From positions 1 to 6,283 of the forward strand of contig JAUVLC010000131.1 of NCBI GenBank assembly GCA_030595925.1: DNA of 6,283 nt, read 5' to 3'. Each line of letters opens with the position of its first letter. Position 1 is the first letter of the stretch. The notes beneath the pieces were generated by a model. That model saw nothing but the letters and a program-made list of their open reading frames with translations, did not search any database and was not told where the DNA came from. Made by a program: the position numbers and the translations under genes. Shown here piece by piece: positions 2,679 to 6,283 of this stretch. The DNA comes from Clostridia bacterium. GTDB taxonomy: Bacteria > CBDUZB01 > JAGLHV01.

Positions 2679-2783
2679 TCATTCTATCTTCGTAAAAATC
2701 CAAAAGTCGGTATTTCGCTTAACAGCAAAGCCCAACGGTACGGGTAATCTCTCCTCCGCTGCATTGAGAAGCTGTGTCAAAAG
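2679..2783 (-). pseudogene. Possible gene remnant (34-codon open frame without start signal)
   Basis: Between an in-frame TAG (2786-2784) and a TGA (2681-2679) the minus strand encodes 34 residues with a protein-like composition, including LPVPLGFAVKRNTDFWIFTK. It looks like the C-terminal end of a globular protein. There is no ATG or GTG and no SD in front of it, and I do not recognise the family. The frame directly upstream, across the TAG, is the 36-codon small ORF, so a single interrupted ancestral gene is also possible. The assignment is weak because short open frames occur by chance; the sequence may simply be the leader of the downstream gene. Confidence 0.18.
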
Positions 2784-2894
2784 CTACTTAATTATGTTAT
2801 AATATAAATCATCAGCATAGTCAATAAAAACCATTAATAACAAGGATATAATATACAATTTAAAAAATGAGTCTCCCTCCCGTATGATAAGCAT
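2784..2894 (-). CDS. Putative 36-residue single-helix membrane peptide
   Basis: The ATG at 2894-2892 opens 36 codons ending in TAG (2786-2784). The product starts MLIIREGDSFFKLY and carries one hydrophobic stretch, about residues 10-24 (FFKLYIISLLLMVFI), followed by an acidic, tyrosine-rich tail. The best support is an SD core, GGGAGGG (2909-2903), 8 nt before the ATG. It begins 23 nt after the stop of the YiiX-like lipoprotein, so it could be the second gene of a small unit. No family is recognised. In A+T-rich DNA a chance ORF of this length is common, and a second GGGAGGG inside the frame (2881-2875) shows that the SD-like run may be part of a direct repeat instead. Confidence 0.25.
   Translation of the reverse strand: MLIIREGDSFFKLYIISLLLMVFIDYADDLYYNIIK
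2796..2824 (-). promoter_or_regulatory. Putative sigma70-type promoter for the fused membrane / spermidine-synthase-like gene
   Basis: On the minus strand TTGACT (2824-2819) and TATAAC (2801-2796) are separated by exactly 17 nt, each one mismatch from the TTGACA/TATAAT consensus. Transcription would start near 2789, giving a leader of roughly 150 nt before the ATG at 2640. In A+T-rich DNA such matches also arise by chance, so this remains a prediction. Confidence 0.35.
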
Positions 2895-2917
2895 ATGTGC
2901 TGCCCTCCCAAAATCCA

Positions 2918-3547
2918 CTAGTTTTCTTCTTTTATTTTTACCAATAAATCAGAATTAAACATCTGAATTGGTGAAATTACTATTTCATCCAAATTAATTT
3001 TATTACCATATCTTTTTTTTATTAAGGCTTTAACCTTAGGGCTAGTTAAATCAAAATCTTTAAATTTTTGTAATTTACCAATCTCAATATTAAATACTCT
3101 TTTATATATTTTCCATACTAATTCTGAACAATAAATTTTGTTATCATCCCATTGAAAAAGATTATCATAATCTTTTTCTTTAAAATATTTTCCGATTTTT
3201 TTCATCTTCAAAATATTTTTAGTAGTCAATATTTCATCTGCATTTTTTAGTCTTTTAATTACATAATGTTTATTTTTTCCCCTTTTAATCCATTTATCCA
3301 ATGGTGTTAGTCGCACAGGTTGTACTGCTTCATAAACATAAAATTTGTCTTTATTTTTATAAATAATTCCCATATGAGTATATTTGGATTTAGTTGCAAG
3401 CTTTAATTCCACGCCTTGTGAAGACATTGATTCGTGGAAAATTATATCTCCATCTTTTATATTTTTATCAATGCCTGATTTGCAACAACTAGTAGAAAAA
3501 ATTAAGATGACGGAATATAATAATACATTTTTCATGAAATTTTCCAT
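2918..3547 (-). CDS. YiiX-like permuted NlpC/P60 (peptidase C92-type) putative lipoprotein
   Basis: This 209-residue protein has the hallmarks of the YiiX/YebB-like permuted papain-fold family. These are GDIIFHES (33-40), a YTHMGI block giving the catalytic His (H58), VYEAVQPVRLTPLDKWIKRG with E73, and YCSELVWKIY with the predicted nucleophile C140. The conserved tail is FDLTSPKVKALI (165-176). Length is normal for the family, whose members are predicted amidases, peptidases or acyltransferases without a settled substrate. The N-terminus MKNVLLYSVILIFSTSCC looks like a lipoprotein signal, cut before C21, but the lipobox (STSC) lacks the usual Leu at -3. Met5 (ATG at 3535-3533) fits the signal peptide as well as Met1, and neither has a good SD. 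The gene is very A+T-rich, with 36 Lys against 5 Arg. It starts just after an attC-like element, so horizontal origin is likely. Confidence 0.85.
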   Translation of the reverse strand: MENFMKNVLLYSVILIFSTSCCKSGIDKNIKDGDIIFHESMSSQGVELKLATKSKYTHMGIIYKNKDKFYVYEAVQPVRLTPLDKWIKRGKNKHYVIKRLKNADEILTTKNILKMKKIGKYFKEKDYDNLFQWDDNKIYCSELVWKIYKRVFNIEIGKLQKFKDFDLTSPKVKALIKKRYGNKINLDEIVISPIQMFNSDLLVKIKEEN

Positions 3548-3586
3548 ATAGCAATATAATTTATATGCTTCCTAAAAGGCAGCAAT

Positions 3587-3686
3587 CATTACGCCCAATG
3601 TTCCACAGCTACACAAAGTTGACAAGCAACAAAAGCTAATTTGGACAAAGCAAAGCAAAGTCGTGTAGTCGCTGTTAGGCATAATG
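3587..3686. repeat. attC-like imperfect inverted repeat (integron cassette recombination site candidate)
   Basis: On the plus strand the ends are GCCCAAT (3593-3599) and GTTAGGC (3674-3680). The second matches the attC R' consensus GTTRRRY exactly; the first is one base off RYYYAAC. Outer arms CATTA/TAATG (3587-3591, 3682-3686) extend the pairing. Inside, ACAGCTACAC (3605-3614) pairs with GTGTAGTCGCTGT (3663-3675), leaving a 3-nt bulge on one strand, as extrahelical bases do in attC hairpins. The core is 88 bp, within the usual attC range. On the minus strand it lies between the DUF2249 gene and the YiiX-like gene. Orientation is uncertain because attC sites are nearly symmetric: read on the minus strand the ends are GCCTAAC (perfect) and ATTGGGC (one mismatch). 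Confidence 0.6.
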
Positions 3687-3738
3687 CCCGGATTTTCATA
3701 AACAAGTTTCAAAAAGTACATGGAAATAGTAATTAAAA

Positions 3739-4455
3739 TCATTCATCCCTTGTCGCTTTATAAAACGTGCTTACATCCGGATTCTTTTCTCCAAATCTTT
3801 CAATGAGTTTTTTTACGATTTCAGGGCATTTAACACCTTTTTTTTCTTGTGTCTTAATAAACTGATAAGCTGCGAACAGTGAAGAAGGGCCAATTTCCGA
3901 TGCAAAATACCCGATACCTTGCTCCCAAACAAACATCGCAAATAATTCATCCAATTCAGCAACAGTAACTCCAATTGAATATGCTTTAATCAACTCTCTT
4001 GTTGCCTGTCTCATCCGGCCTGCCCCAACACCATTGGCAAGAGACAATAAAAGACGGGTCTTCATGTCAATTGCCGGATTTTCCTGTCCCCAGATTAAAT
4101 CCCGGAAATTAACAACTACGTTAGATAGTTTGGGATCAATGAGATTGAAATTCACAATCGCTGTTGGTTTAAGCGGAATATCCATACCATCAGCATATTT
4201 TGGACTTTTCATAATACTACGATAAAAATAAACCTTATATTCCGTTTCAGATATTTTATCAGTATGATGTTCATACCCTAACTCCTCAAAAGCAGAGTAT
4301 AGCGGAATAGGCTCAAAACTCTGCACAATGCATAATCCATTTCCCATTTCCAAACCTTGAGCTTTTTTCAATATGGAGGGTAAAAAATTACCTTTCAACT
4401 CCCGCACATCTTTTACTTCAAAAGTTTCTTTCTGGTTTAACCAATCTTTTTTCAT
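3739..4455 (-). CDS. DUF2249 - carboxymuconolactone decarboxylase-like (CMD) fusion protein
   Basis: The product has two parts (residues counted from the upstream ATG at 4461). Residues ~15-80 match the TusA-like DUF2249 pattern: VKDVRELKGNFLPSILKK, then LEMGNGLCIVQSFEPIPLYSAF and a C-terminal strand EYKVYFYR. Residues ~108-205 resemble a CMD/AhpD-like helical domain: IDPKLSNVVVNFRDLIWG, then MKTRLLLSLANGV and ATRELIKAYSIGVTVAELDE. The CxxC redox pair of AhpD-type members is absent; the only cysteines are C44 and C212. Peroxidase activity is therefore unlikely and the substrate is unknown. No signal peptide is seen, so it is probably cytoplasmic. Start choice: the SD GAGGAGGA (4469-4462) directly abuts the ATG at 4461 but lies 6 nt from the ATG at 4455, which is preferred and gives 238 residues. 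It lies 108 bp downstream of the phosphoesterase gene. Confidence 0.8.
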   Translation of the reverse strand: MKKDWLNQKETFEVKDVRELKGNFLPSILKKAQGLEMGNGLCIVQSFEPIPLYSAFEELGYEHHTDKISETEYKVYFYRSIMKSPKYADGMDIPLKPTAIVNFNLIDPKLSNVVVNFRDLIWGQENPAIDMKTRLLLSLANGVGAGRMRQATRELIKAYSIGVTVAELDELFAMFVWEQGIGYFASEIGPSSLFAAYQFIKTQEKKGVKCPEIVKKLIERFGEKNPDVSTFYKATRDE

Positions 4456-4461
4456 CTTCAT

Positions 4462-4469
4462 TCCTCCTC
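4462..4469 (-). promoter_or_regulatory. Ribosome binding site deciding the start of the DUF2249-CMD gene
   Basis: GAGGAGGA is a near-perfect anti-SD match. It touches the first in-frame ATG (4461) with no spacer and lies 6 nt from the second (4455), so initiation should occur at 4455. Confidence 0.75.
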
Positions 4470-4492
4470 GTATAATGTGTTTTTGTTAAGTC

Positions 4493-4520
4493 TTTATATT
4501 TCCACTTCCTTTCCTCGCAA
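4493..4520 (-). promoter_or_regulatory. Weak candidate sigma70 promoter for the DUF2249-CMD gene
   Basis: TTGCGA (4520-4515) and TATAAA (4498-4493) are spaced by 16 nt on the minus strand, within the gap between the phosphoesterase stop and the DUF2249 gene. The -35 has four of six consensus bases and the -10 has five of six. Read-through from the upstream gene is equally possible, since no terminator hairpin is seen in this gap. Confidence 0.22.
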
Positions 4521-4563
4521 AATTAATTTTTTCTTTTCGTTTTGTTTATTTTAAAACTAAAAC

Positions 4564-5430
4564 TCAAGGACGCGATTTATTTTTGTCCACCGTAGTCTTT
4601 TGTTTAGCATCTTTGTAAATTAAAGGAATAAACTCGTGTTTTATTAGTGTTGGGGAAACATGCCAAAATCTGAAACCCAAAGGTCGCCCATAAAGATTTT
4701 TGCTGGTTGTTTCGCCGGTTACCAATTGAATACCTTTATAGTCATTGACGATTATCGTATGTACGTGTCCTGTAAGAACGGCAACAACTCCGTTTTGTTT
4801 CAGTAGAGTCAACAACTTATTTCTCCTCTTCCGCGGCAAATTGTAATACTTCTCTTTCTCTTTAGGACTTCTCAAATATAAAGGATAATGTCCCACCAGA
4901 AATATTGGACTCTTTTTTTTGCTCGCAGCTGCCAATGTCTGTTCAAACCATAAATCATGCTTCTTTAATTCATTTTTAAGTGGTGCTTTCCATAATTGTG
5001 TGTTGACCATGACAAAAGTGTATCCCTTGTGTTCAAACGAATAGTAGTCTTTCCCAATGACTTTGCGATATCGCTCTAATGATGCATATGTCGGCTTATT
5101 ACCAACATCATGATTTCCGACAACGCAGTAACAAGGAACAACCAATTCATTTTTGATCCTATTAAAATCAGTAAATGATTGGTCATCGGGTTGAGAAACA
5201 AGGTCACCACAAATAACAACAAAATCCGGTTTGAGAAAATTAATTTGTTTTACGGCCAAACCAAATGATTCAACATCGTGTTGATAGCCACCAACTCCCA
5301 ATTGCGTGTCGCATACCTGCACAAAGGTGAAAGTTTCTGCCTTAAGCCCATCAGGATCGGACAACAAAATCGTTATCATAGATAGGATAATGCCAACAAA
5401 AAAAGTACAATACCTAAAATTTTTTTTCAC
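4564..5430 (-). CDS. Exported calcineurin-like metallophosphoesterase (DxQ / CSTP1-like type)
   Basis: The 288-residue product carries the full set of dinuclear metallophosphatase motifs in order: D41-T-Q43 (DxQ replacing the common DxH), G75-D76, G105-N106-H107-D108, G180-H181 and G221-H222-V-H224. DxQ is the form seen in CSTP1-like and related predicted phosphatases. An N-terminal signal peptide is clear: KK, then a hydrophobic run at about residues 9-23, then LKA before ETF, so cleavage after A31 is likely and the enzyme should act outside the cytoplasm. Substrate cannot be told from sequence; phosphoproteins, nucleotides or phospholipid head groups are all possible. The start codon is GTG (5430-5428), supported by GAGGAGGA four nt upstream. 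The C-terminus ends in a Lys-rich tail. The next gene on the strand is the DUF2249-CMD protein; a functional link is not established. Confidence 0.9.
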   Translation of the reverse strand: MKKNFRYCTFFVGIILSMITILLSDPDGLKAETFTFVQVCDTQLGVGGYQHDVESFGLAVKQINFLKPDFVVICGDLVSQPDDQSFTDFNRIKNELVVPCYCVVGNHDVGNKPTYASLERYRKVIGKDYYSFEHKGYTFVMVNTQLWKAPLKNELKKHDLWFEQTLAAASKKKSPIFLVGHYPLYLRSPKEKEKYYNLPRKRRNKLLTLLKQNGVVAVLTGHVHTIIVNDYKGIQLVTGETTSKNLYGRPLGFRFWHVSPTLIKHEFIPLIYKDAKQKTTVDKNKSRP

Positions 5431-5691
5431 CTATTCCTCCTCAACTCCAAATAATTCCATTCATCCAATTTTAATACGCTAAATAATAGCGCAAACGTTT
5501 TCATTTATTTCTCTGTTATTTAAATTTAATCCTCGCTTTATGTTAATTACGTCAACCCCCCGTCCCTGTTTCCTGCAGTAAAATATCCCAAGCACAGCCA
5601 ACGTTGAATTATTTTTTTTCTATCCACACATCTTTATTAAGCCATTTAAAATTTTATCTGTGTAGCCAGGATGTAATCTAAAAACGAATTG
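5431..5691. other. Non-coding gap with a small hairpin, an AAACGTTT palindrome and a G+C-rich patch
   Basis: No supported gene is seen in this 261-bp gap. CGCTA (5477-5481) and TAGCG (5487-5491) form a 5-bp hairpin with a 5-nt loop. Beside it AAACGTTT (5493-5500) is a perfect 8-bp palindrome, reminiscent of LacI-family operator centres, about 65 bp upstream of the phosphoesterase start. A run of C-rich sequence at 5551-5578 stands out against the A+T-rich surroundings. None of these has proven function. Confidence 0.3.
5435..5442 (-). promoter_or_regulatory. Strong ribosome binding site supporting the GTG start of the phosphoesterase
   Basis: GAGGAGGA is followed by four bases and GTG (5430-5428). 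No in-frame ATG has comparable spacing, and the GTG immediately precedes the Lys-Lys of the signal peptide. Confidence 0.75.
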
Positions 5692-5991
5692 CTATGTCAT
5701 ATAAATTAAAGTAGCTGCATCAATTTGCATGGCAATAATCAATAATACTATCGATATAAATAAGACTGCTACTGTAATCCACAAATTTTTCCAATTATTT
5801 TTTATCAAATCCAATACTACAGAAAATGCACCAATCAATATTAAAATTATAGTTATCGCTGCCAATAGCATCTCTATTGGAACATAAATACTTTTCGTAT
5901 ACATATCTGAGTATAGTTGATTATTATGAAGGAATGCAACGATCAATAATATTGTTGGTGTTAATAATGTAATTATATTTCTCATTTTCAT
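5692..5991 (-). CDS. Small three-helix membrane protein of unknown function
   Basis: A 99-residue hydrophobic product begins MKMRNIITLL. Three membrane segments are evident, at about residues 5-21, 39-61 and 71-91, with a short lysine/asparagine loop (IKNNWKNLW) between the second and third. No cysteine, catalytic motif or family signature is recognised. The frame can be extended to a TTG at 6009, but the ATG at 5991 (or 5985) is a more credible start. None of these has an SD, unlike the phosphoesterase and DUF2249 genes downstream. The gene is strikingly A+T-rich and begins about 35 nt past an attC-like inverted repeat, the same arrangement as the YiiX-like gene. Three well-formed helices in one frame argue that it is real, although A+T-rich DNA tends to encode hydrophobic residues by chance. 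Confidence 0.5.
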   Translation of the reverse strand: MKMRNIITLLTPTILLIVAFLHNNQLYSDMYTKSIYVPIEMLLAAITIILILIGAFSVVLDLIKNNWKNLWITVAVLFISIVLLIIAMQIDAATLIYMT

Positions 5992-6024
5992 AATTAATGT
6001 AAAAATCAATTTTTAAATTATTTC

Positions 6025-6134
6025 CGATAACATTTCGCGTGTATACAACGCTTTCACCGGAGTGATACTAATGGTGAAAATATGGCAAAGCCCAGAGTGA
6101 CCAACAGGAAAGGAGAGTGTACACGCTGTTGTGC
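6025..6134. repeat. Second, more degenerate attC-like nested inverted repeat
   Basis: GCGTGTATAC (6037-6046) pairs with GTGTACACGC (6117-6126) in 9 of 10 positions. Inside it TTTCACC (6052-6058) pairs perfectly with GGTGAAA (6073-6079). The right arm at 6117-6134 matches the right arm of the 3663-3680 element in 14 of 18 positions (GTGTANNCGCTGTTNNGC), which links the two structures. The terminal boxes are poorer: GTTGTGC (6128-6134) has one mismatch to GTTRRRY, and the opposite end (CGATAAC, 6025-6031) keeps only YAAC. It lies between the methyltransferase stop and the small membrane gene. Confidence 0.35.
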
Positions 6135-6148
6135 GATAAAACAAGTTA

Positions 6149-6283
6149 TTACTTTTCAGCAATAACCAGCATCTCAAAATCTTCTGTTGTAAGTTTATCC
6201 TTTCTTGAAAAAACTCCGAGTTTTGCTCCATAAATATCAATCTTTTTAAATTCGAGTGATTTTAATAGCCATGTAATTTCAGA
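6149..6283 (-). CDS. Probable class I SAM-dependent methyltransferase, C-terminal fragment (cut by window edge)
   Basis: From the window edge the minus strand is open for 44 codons ending in TAA (6151-6149). The peptide contains SEITWLLKSLEFKKIDIYG and closes with DFEMLVIAEK. The order 'EI..LL...GF..I.IYG ... M.VIA.K' is the usual C-terminal end of class I SAM-dependent methyltransferases, where the last two strands of the fold pair after a variable loop. The SAM-binding motif would lie beyond the edge, so the substrate cannot be assigned. A different-frame ORF overlapping this region has no support. The gene is transcribed toward the attC-like element that starts 14 nt after its stop. Confidence 0.65.
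   Translation of the reverse strand, partial: SEITWLLKSLEFKKIDIYGAKLGVFSRKDKLTTEDFEMLVIAEK

Follow-up and report, generated by a model that had tools for sequence, protein, structure and literature searches.

The window, which is the whole 6,283-bp contig C2 of G000, a 2.6-Mb MAG (97% complete, 193 contigs), very probably holds a site for cassette recombination that belongs to a variant attC family, read on the minus strand and placed at the 3' end of a DUF2249-domain gene, in a decayed, integrase-less, CALIN-like array. With more reserve, we also lean towards a broader reading in which there is a second kind of integron, having a HARP-fused tyrosine recombinase without the I2 helix, an attI of its own made of two palindromes and an attC type of its own, spread over about a tenth of the sampled prokaryote genomes and represented in the window by a decayed member. 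No system of this kind was found in a literature search confined to open-licence papers. The genomes compared, most of them MAGs, include two congeners of G000 (G001 and G002), while the remaining sampled relatives have no more than the domain in common with it.

The site in the window

An earlier note, made from the letters of the window, had proposed an attC-like site here, and much of its description holds. The plus strand does carry the boxes GCCCAAT (3593-3599) and GTTAGGC (3674-3680), an imperfect stem is present at 3593-3680, the core of 88 bp agrees with the stated size near 90 bp, and the pairing said to continue past the core (CATTA/TAATG) is confirmed as complementarity. The site reads on the minus strand, however, and not on the plus strand as it had been drawn. 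The 3-nt bulge that had been reported appears only in the minimum-energy fold; the register backed by covariation, with 3662-3672 opposite 3605-3615, has one A.C mismatch and G.T pairs and no bulge, and the asymmetry of the site sits in its spacers (1 nt versus 5 nt). The features discussed here are as follows.

3593-3680, minus strand: core of the probable variant attC-type cassette recombination site (R2 model match; Omnitrophota homologue; family covariation)
3674-3680, minus strand: R'' box GCCTAAC (sequence; conserved column in the family)
3662-3672, minus strand: L'' arm GCGACTACACG, 1 nt past R'' (pairs with 3605-3615)
3605-3615, minus strand: L' arm TGTGTAGCTGT (pairs with 3662-3672)
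3600-3604, minus strand: asymmetric 5-nt spacer GGAAC preceding R' (alignment A1/A3)
3593-3599, minus strand: R' box ATTGGGC (sequence)
3739-4461, minus strand: gene 5' of the site, with an N-terminal DUF2249 domain (stop 58 nt from the site)
2918-3547, minus strand: gene 3' of the site, a YaeF/YiiX-type C92 amidase (Pfam PF05708, 96.6 bits)
6025-6134, minus strand: a further site of this type, weak, following a methyltransferase gene (R2 15.8 bits, E 0.32)
2894-6139, no strand: block missing at the same locus in congener G002 (blastn of the window against G002 C375)

Set against the attC boxes RYYYAAC and GTTRRRY, the R'' box fits, but R' has an A in place of the crossover G of GTTRRRY, a G that is present in 46 of the 52 scorable sites of the independent set described below.

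Taken by itself, the window hairpin would not stand as an observation. The single-strand fold proposed as a check is no better than chance on either strand (z -0.48 on the plus strand and -1.12 on the minus strand), and a mechanical scan for an R box plus a stem returns equally good matches in shuffled sequence. A search of Rfam gave no match, and the exact pattern GCCYAAC..GTTRGGC does not occur in G000, the window's own MAG. Pattern matches on viral contigs were set aside as coincidences inside coding sequence, and neither the C92 protein nor the recombinase discussed below has relatives among the viral contigs searched. The insignificant fold of the single sequence is what can be said for taking the element as a hairpin arisen by chance, or as a transcription terminator, in AT-rich DNA between genes, a reading that is nonetheless barely conceivable given homology across phyla and covariation, and that is refuted by an independent model match. 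It is because of homology, in the form of an Omnitrophota element and this independent match, that we regard the window site as more than chance.

Homologues and covariation

The first homology search set the window against G000, G001, G002 and an Omnitrophota MAG, JAIORP01 (G041). An element in G041, standing directly after a gene, is 75% identical to the window site over 84 nt (E 8e-8), and a second Omnitrophota genome, G051, has a nearly perfect palindromic relative. A model of four sequences (R1: the window, G041, G051 and G000 contig C136 copies) led to arrays, with eight consecutive sites on contig C12 of G132 and three on C4 of G051, separating single-gene modules that include toxin-antitoxin and restriction modules among others. 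One cassette-like ORF of the G132 array (L100 8878-9342) is built of STSQYGG repeats.

A second model, R2, comprises 22 Omnitrophota sites and no G000 sequence, making the test non-circular. It matches the window at exactly 3593-3680 on the minus strand with 55 bits (E 4e-12 in 115 kb), and at E 8.8e-11 in a search of all of G000. The earlier note had seen a site standing alone, and this did not survive: R2 finds six sites at E<=1e-4 in G000 (on C2, C36, C111, C136, C155 and C165), that is, at least five more of the variant type, and a model of ordinary attC adds two weak canonical matches. Across the sampled tree, 30 of 290 genomes have R2 matches. On four Bacteroidota plasmids R2 gives one match only (E 0.097) though hairpins are visible by eye, and the sites on these plasmids are therefore a further diverged type.

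In the fold of the family, R'' and R' pair over 7 bp and L'' and L' over 11 bp, the R''-L'' spacer being 1 nt long and the L'-R' spacer 5 nt. Three L''/L' pairs are changed on both sides already within four sequences. With alignments fitted to the model, and so biased toward its structure, the covariation score is 0.474 for 31 sites (the four seed sequences and 27 outside the seed) versus 0.184 shuffled and 0.05-0.11 slid, and 0.449 for 53 further sites from other genomes versus 0.169 shuffled and 0.05-0.12 slid. Pair changes on both sides amount to 94 cells in the smaller set and 182 in the larger.

Cassette ends and gene orientation

The cassette test compares the 3' flank of one site with the reverse complement of the 5' flank of the next, whereas independent hairpins predict a match between the two flanks of one site. 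Over 15 consecutive pairs the module ends agree at 12.5 of 18 nt versus 8.4 when permuted, and over 31 pairs from other genomes at 11.7 of 18 versus 8.7, with 0 of 20,000 permutations reaching the observed value in either case (46 consecutive pairs overall, p below 5e-5 in each set). Within single sites, the similarity of the flanks is 8.7-9.0, near background. Such complementary ends are a trait common to integrons and not new: the ends of ordinary class 1 cassettes are complementary at 7/7 positions in the box and about 5/11 outside it, and we dropped out-of-box complementarity as a hallmark of the family since ordinary cassettes reach that value too. In orientation, 72 of 79 family sites have a same-strand stop within 200 nt on their 5' side, as against 6 of 79 in the mirror arrangement, and the window site lies 58 nt past the stop of the same-strand gene 3739-4461.

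These results bear on whether the family could be a MITE-like or REP-like dispersed hairpin having no relation to cassettes. The sites are indeed palindromic and dispersed, with a conserved loop sequence, but the ends of inter-site modules match while the flanks of one site do not, and a MITE predicts the reverse. The cassette signature is, moreover, above permutation, and the sites stand after gene ends in a single orientation, so that we consider this reading highly improbable and retain that of a cassette recombination site.

At a distance of 4 nt outwards from the R boxes, most cassettes read GMAAK on the start side and, as the reverse complement, GMWGK on the end side, which amounts to a recurrent A.C mismatch within otherwise complementary cassette ends. 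Several contigs (L153, L129, L168 and L170) stop no further than about 130 nt from a family site, as though such repeats broke assemblies and hid arrays.

Relation to ordinary attC sites and IntI

The family shares with the attC sites of class 1 and chromosomal integrons the boxes R'' RYYYAAC and R' GTTRRRY, the hairpin, the position after a gene and the complementary cassette ends. It differs in its spacers (1 and 5 nt, where attC has about 9 and 9), in the absence of extrahelical bases at the usual places, in its conserved loop and in being unmatched by a model of ordinary attC. That model, R3, was built on 16 ordinary attC, of which 11 come from plasmid integrons and 5 from the IntI-bearing Omnitrophota MAG, and it recovers held-out ordinary attC. 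The earlier note had named failure of an attC covariance model in both orientations as grounds for giving up its reading, and as regards ordinary attC this is the outcome: R3 has no match in the window at E<=5 on either strand. It also misses the arrays of the variant family. We conclude that the window site is not an ordinary attC because R3 matches it in neither orientation.

Ordinary sites do occur in the same MAG, where R3 has weak matches at C155 2304-2382 (E 0.018) and at about 10049-10116 on C136 (E 0.19). C155 carries an ordinary attC, followed in turn by a gene, by a variant site and by the beginning of a further ordinary attC; since this contig holds ordinary and variant sites together, both site types share arrays.

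The absence of an integrase, noted earlier for the window, extends to the whole of G000, in which the best TIGR02249 match has 75 bits against a cut-off of 265. No IntI with its specific insertion is found in G000, G001 or G002, and the family-rich genomes G000, G051, G132, G055, G355 and G326 have no IntI over the cut-off; among the genomes checked, only G041 does.

We therefore have to weigh whether the window site is an ordinary attC recognised by IntI, left as a CALIN remnant after loss of intI. Canonical attC sites occur in G000, one array (C155) is shared, and G041, with its 75% identical site, has two IntI genes, all of which would fit. We nevertheless judge this unlikely, in that the 16-site model recovers held-out attC and yet misses both the window site and the family arrays, that the site (spacers of 1 and 5 nt, bulge-free L stem) lacks the roughly 9-nt symmetric unpaired spacers and the extrahelical bases of attC, and that the family-rich genomes just listed are without IntI. 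The resemblance to a CALIN is real as far as it goes, namely cassette sites, in an array or dispersed, in a genome without intI; at the window, however, the sites are of the variant type, and there are only one clear site and one weak one (E 0.32). Of the suggestion that the window holds a stray cassette or a CALIN, what stands is the cassette site and the missing integrase, while the identification as ordinary attC falls away and the likely recombinase is not IntI.

A candidate recombinase and an attI-like site

A recombinase of one family, or a remnant of it, occurs in 8 of 51 site loci, which were selected for good matches, whereas none of 20 control regions taken from those genomes has one. 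All eight are on the strand of the array and 5' of it. Two are intact, on C55 of G423 (394 aa) and C1 of G596 (372 aa), and both consist of a HARP-like N-terminus (18 bits, under the Pfam cut-off of 25), Phage_int_SAM_4 and Phage_integrase. They score 234 and 240 bits, respectively, against NF040815 (cut-off 220), and 226 and 208 bits against TIGR02249 (cut-off 265). NF040815, a XerA-like model entitled "site-specific tyrosine recombinase/integron integrase" whose cut-off the linked recombinases pass, covers a core of roughly 263 aa, and a cassette function is undocumented in the material consulted for it.

With IntI (TIGR02249) the linked enzymes have in common the Phage_int_SAM_4 and Phage_integrase domains and a location adjoining attI and cassettes. 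They differ from it in scoring 208-226 bits where the cut-off is 265, in the HARP-like N-terminus, in being encoded on the same strand as the cassettes and 5' of them, and in lacking the IntI-specific inserted segment. Integron-like recombinases do not all retain the IntI insertion (PMC8138268). A recombinase of the HARP type is not found in G000.

Just after the recombinase, most loci have a conserved attI-like site, composed of two palindromes (TATCCGAA..TTCGGATA or GACGACA.TGTCGTC), then GAACRAGTTRRRYGMAAT, and ending GAACRAG^TTRRRY; examples are GAACGAGTTATGTGAAAT, AAACAAGTTAGCGGAAAT, GAACAAGTTAGATGCAAT and AAACGAGTTAGACGAAAT. The first cassette of G423 starts at this site, and its own end matches at 16 of 18 nt (0 of 200 shuffles); at a second G423 locus, C202, the cassette ends agree at 14 of 18 (0 of 200 shuffles). 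The ungapped cassette-end test is not significant in G596, where a 2-nt gap is needed, or at the other recombinase loci, where further sites may intervene. Judged by this linkage, the family sites likely belong with the HARP-type recombinase, and we infer that the enzyme acts on a folded single strand.

In the ancestral system, such a hairpin would have formed the end of a gene cassette. A tyrosine recombinase would have bound the folded single strand and cut the R' box between its G and TT, and the cassette would then have been joined into the attI-like site or into another such hairpin site. The likely enzyme would be a relative of IntI and XerA with a HARP-like N-terminal domain and no I2 insertion, its gene lying on the strand of the array and 5' of it.

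One could suppose instead that these are Xer/dif-type modules moved by host XerC/D, and the candidate recombinase is indeed XerA-like (NF040815, 234-240 bits). The sites are hairpins of 80-100 nt with RYYYAAC/GTTRRRY boxes, though, and so are unlike dif sites, which are 28 bp, and the recombinase linked to them is a dedicated enzyme, having an additional N-terminal domain and an attI-like site that goes with it. We regard the Xer/dif explanation as very unlikely and return to the HARP-type enzyme.

The recombinase of G051 (L107) was also considered as the cognate enzyme; its relatives in G249 are IS91-linked, and it was kept as a lead. Its gene (L107 3057-4036, on G051 C8) is interrupted and XerA-like, and adjoins the cassette-like start AACGAGTTATATGAAATTGCCC, which stands where the contig ends and from which it runs divergently.

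The gain of single-strand recombination by IntI is attributed to acquisition of the I2 helix in an eLife 2020 paper (PMC7790495). A cassette system with hairpin sites and an enzyme without the insertion, if true, would make this idea directly testable, and it would mean that surveys undercount cassette arrays. The IntegronFinder 2.0 paper (PMC9024848) relates that the earlier version of the program found only In0 in Bacteroidetes and that the new one adds a complete integron in Salinibacter. In contrast to these counts, two plasmids from Bacteroidota, one of Rufibacter tibetensis (NZ_CP012644) and one of Chryseobacterium, have a recombinase of the type described here followed by cassette-like arrays of small genes with attC-like hairpins.

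The window locus and its congener

The earlier note had tied its reading to variable neighbouring genes, and these are found. In G002, the matches to window positions 2759-2893 and 6140-6184 are only about 113 bp apart, and that gap, which replaces the block 2894-6139, holds one degenerate site (R2 15.3 bits). About 3.2 kb, including the C92, DUF2249 and metallophosphatase genes, has therefore been gained or lost here. The block is bounded by the weak site at 6025-6134, which by eye is homologous to C136:1043-1152 of G000. The collinear flanks in the congener argue against misbinning of the window, a whole 6.3-kb contig.

The best relative of the DUF2249 gene (84% identical) is a canonical cassette gene in G041, the Omnitrophota MAG with two IntI genes, and is bounded there by GTTAGAGC and by an ordinary attC that begins with CTCTAAC; the relatives of the DUF2249 gene in Bacteroidales are ordinary genes of the chromosome. 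The leader of the window gene (4447-4501) is 89% identical to that of a ferredoxin-like (2Fe-2S) gene elsewhere in the MAG, on C135, and for this reason the transferred DUF2249 gene seems to have been joined to a native promoter region.

Applied to the two sites of the window, the cassette test gives only 4 of 18, and so no intact cassette is evident here. Because the site pair bounds no intact cassette and R' has lost the crossover G, we read the array as decayed, and the site is probably inert, given the loss of this G and a MAG without such a recombinase.

A few further observations concern the rest of the contig. On C120 the MAG carries a paralogue of the metallophosphatase gene (4603-5332), with 73% identity. 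The stretch 6148-6283, in which a methyltransferase gene has its 3' end, is 87% identical to C136:249-384, on another array contig, and the window contig ends within this shared repeat. At the other end, positions 1-141 repeat C185:1-141 exactly in reverse complement; this is an assembly overlap, and it places C185 directly to the left of the window. Where the window has an MFS-spermidine synthase fusion gene (247-2758), G002 has a different methyltransferase gene between conserved flanks.
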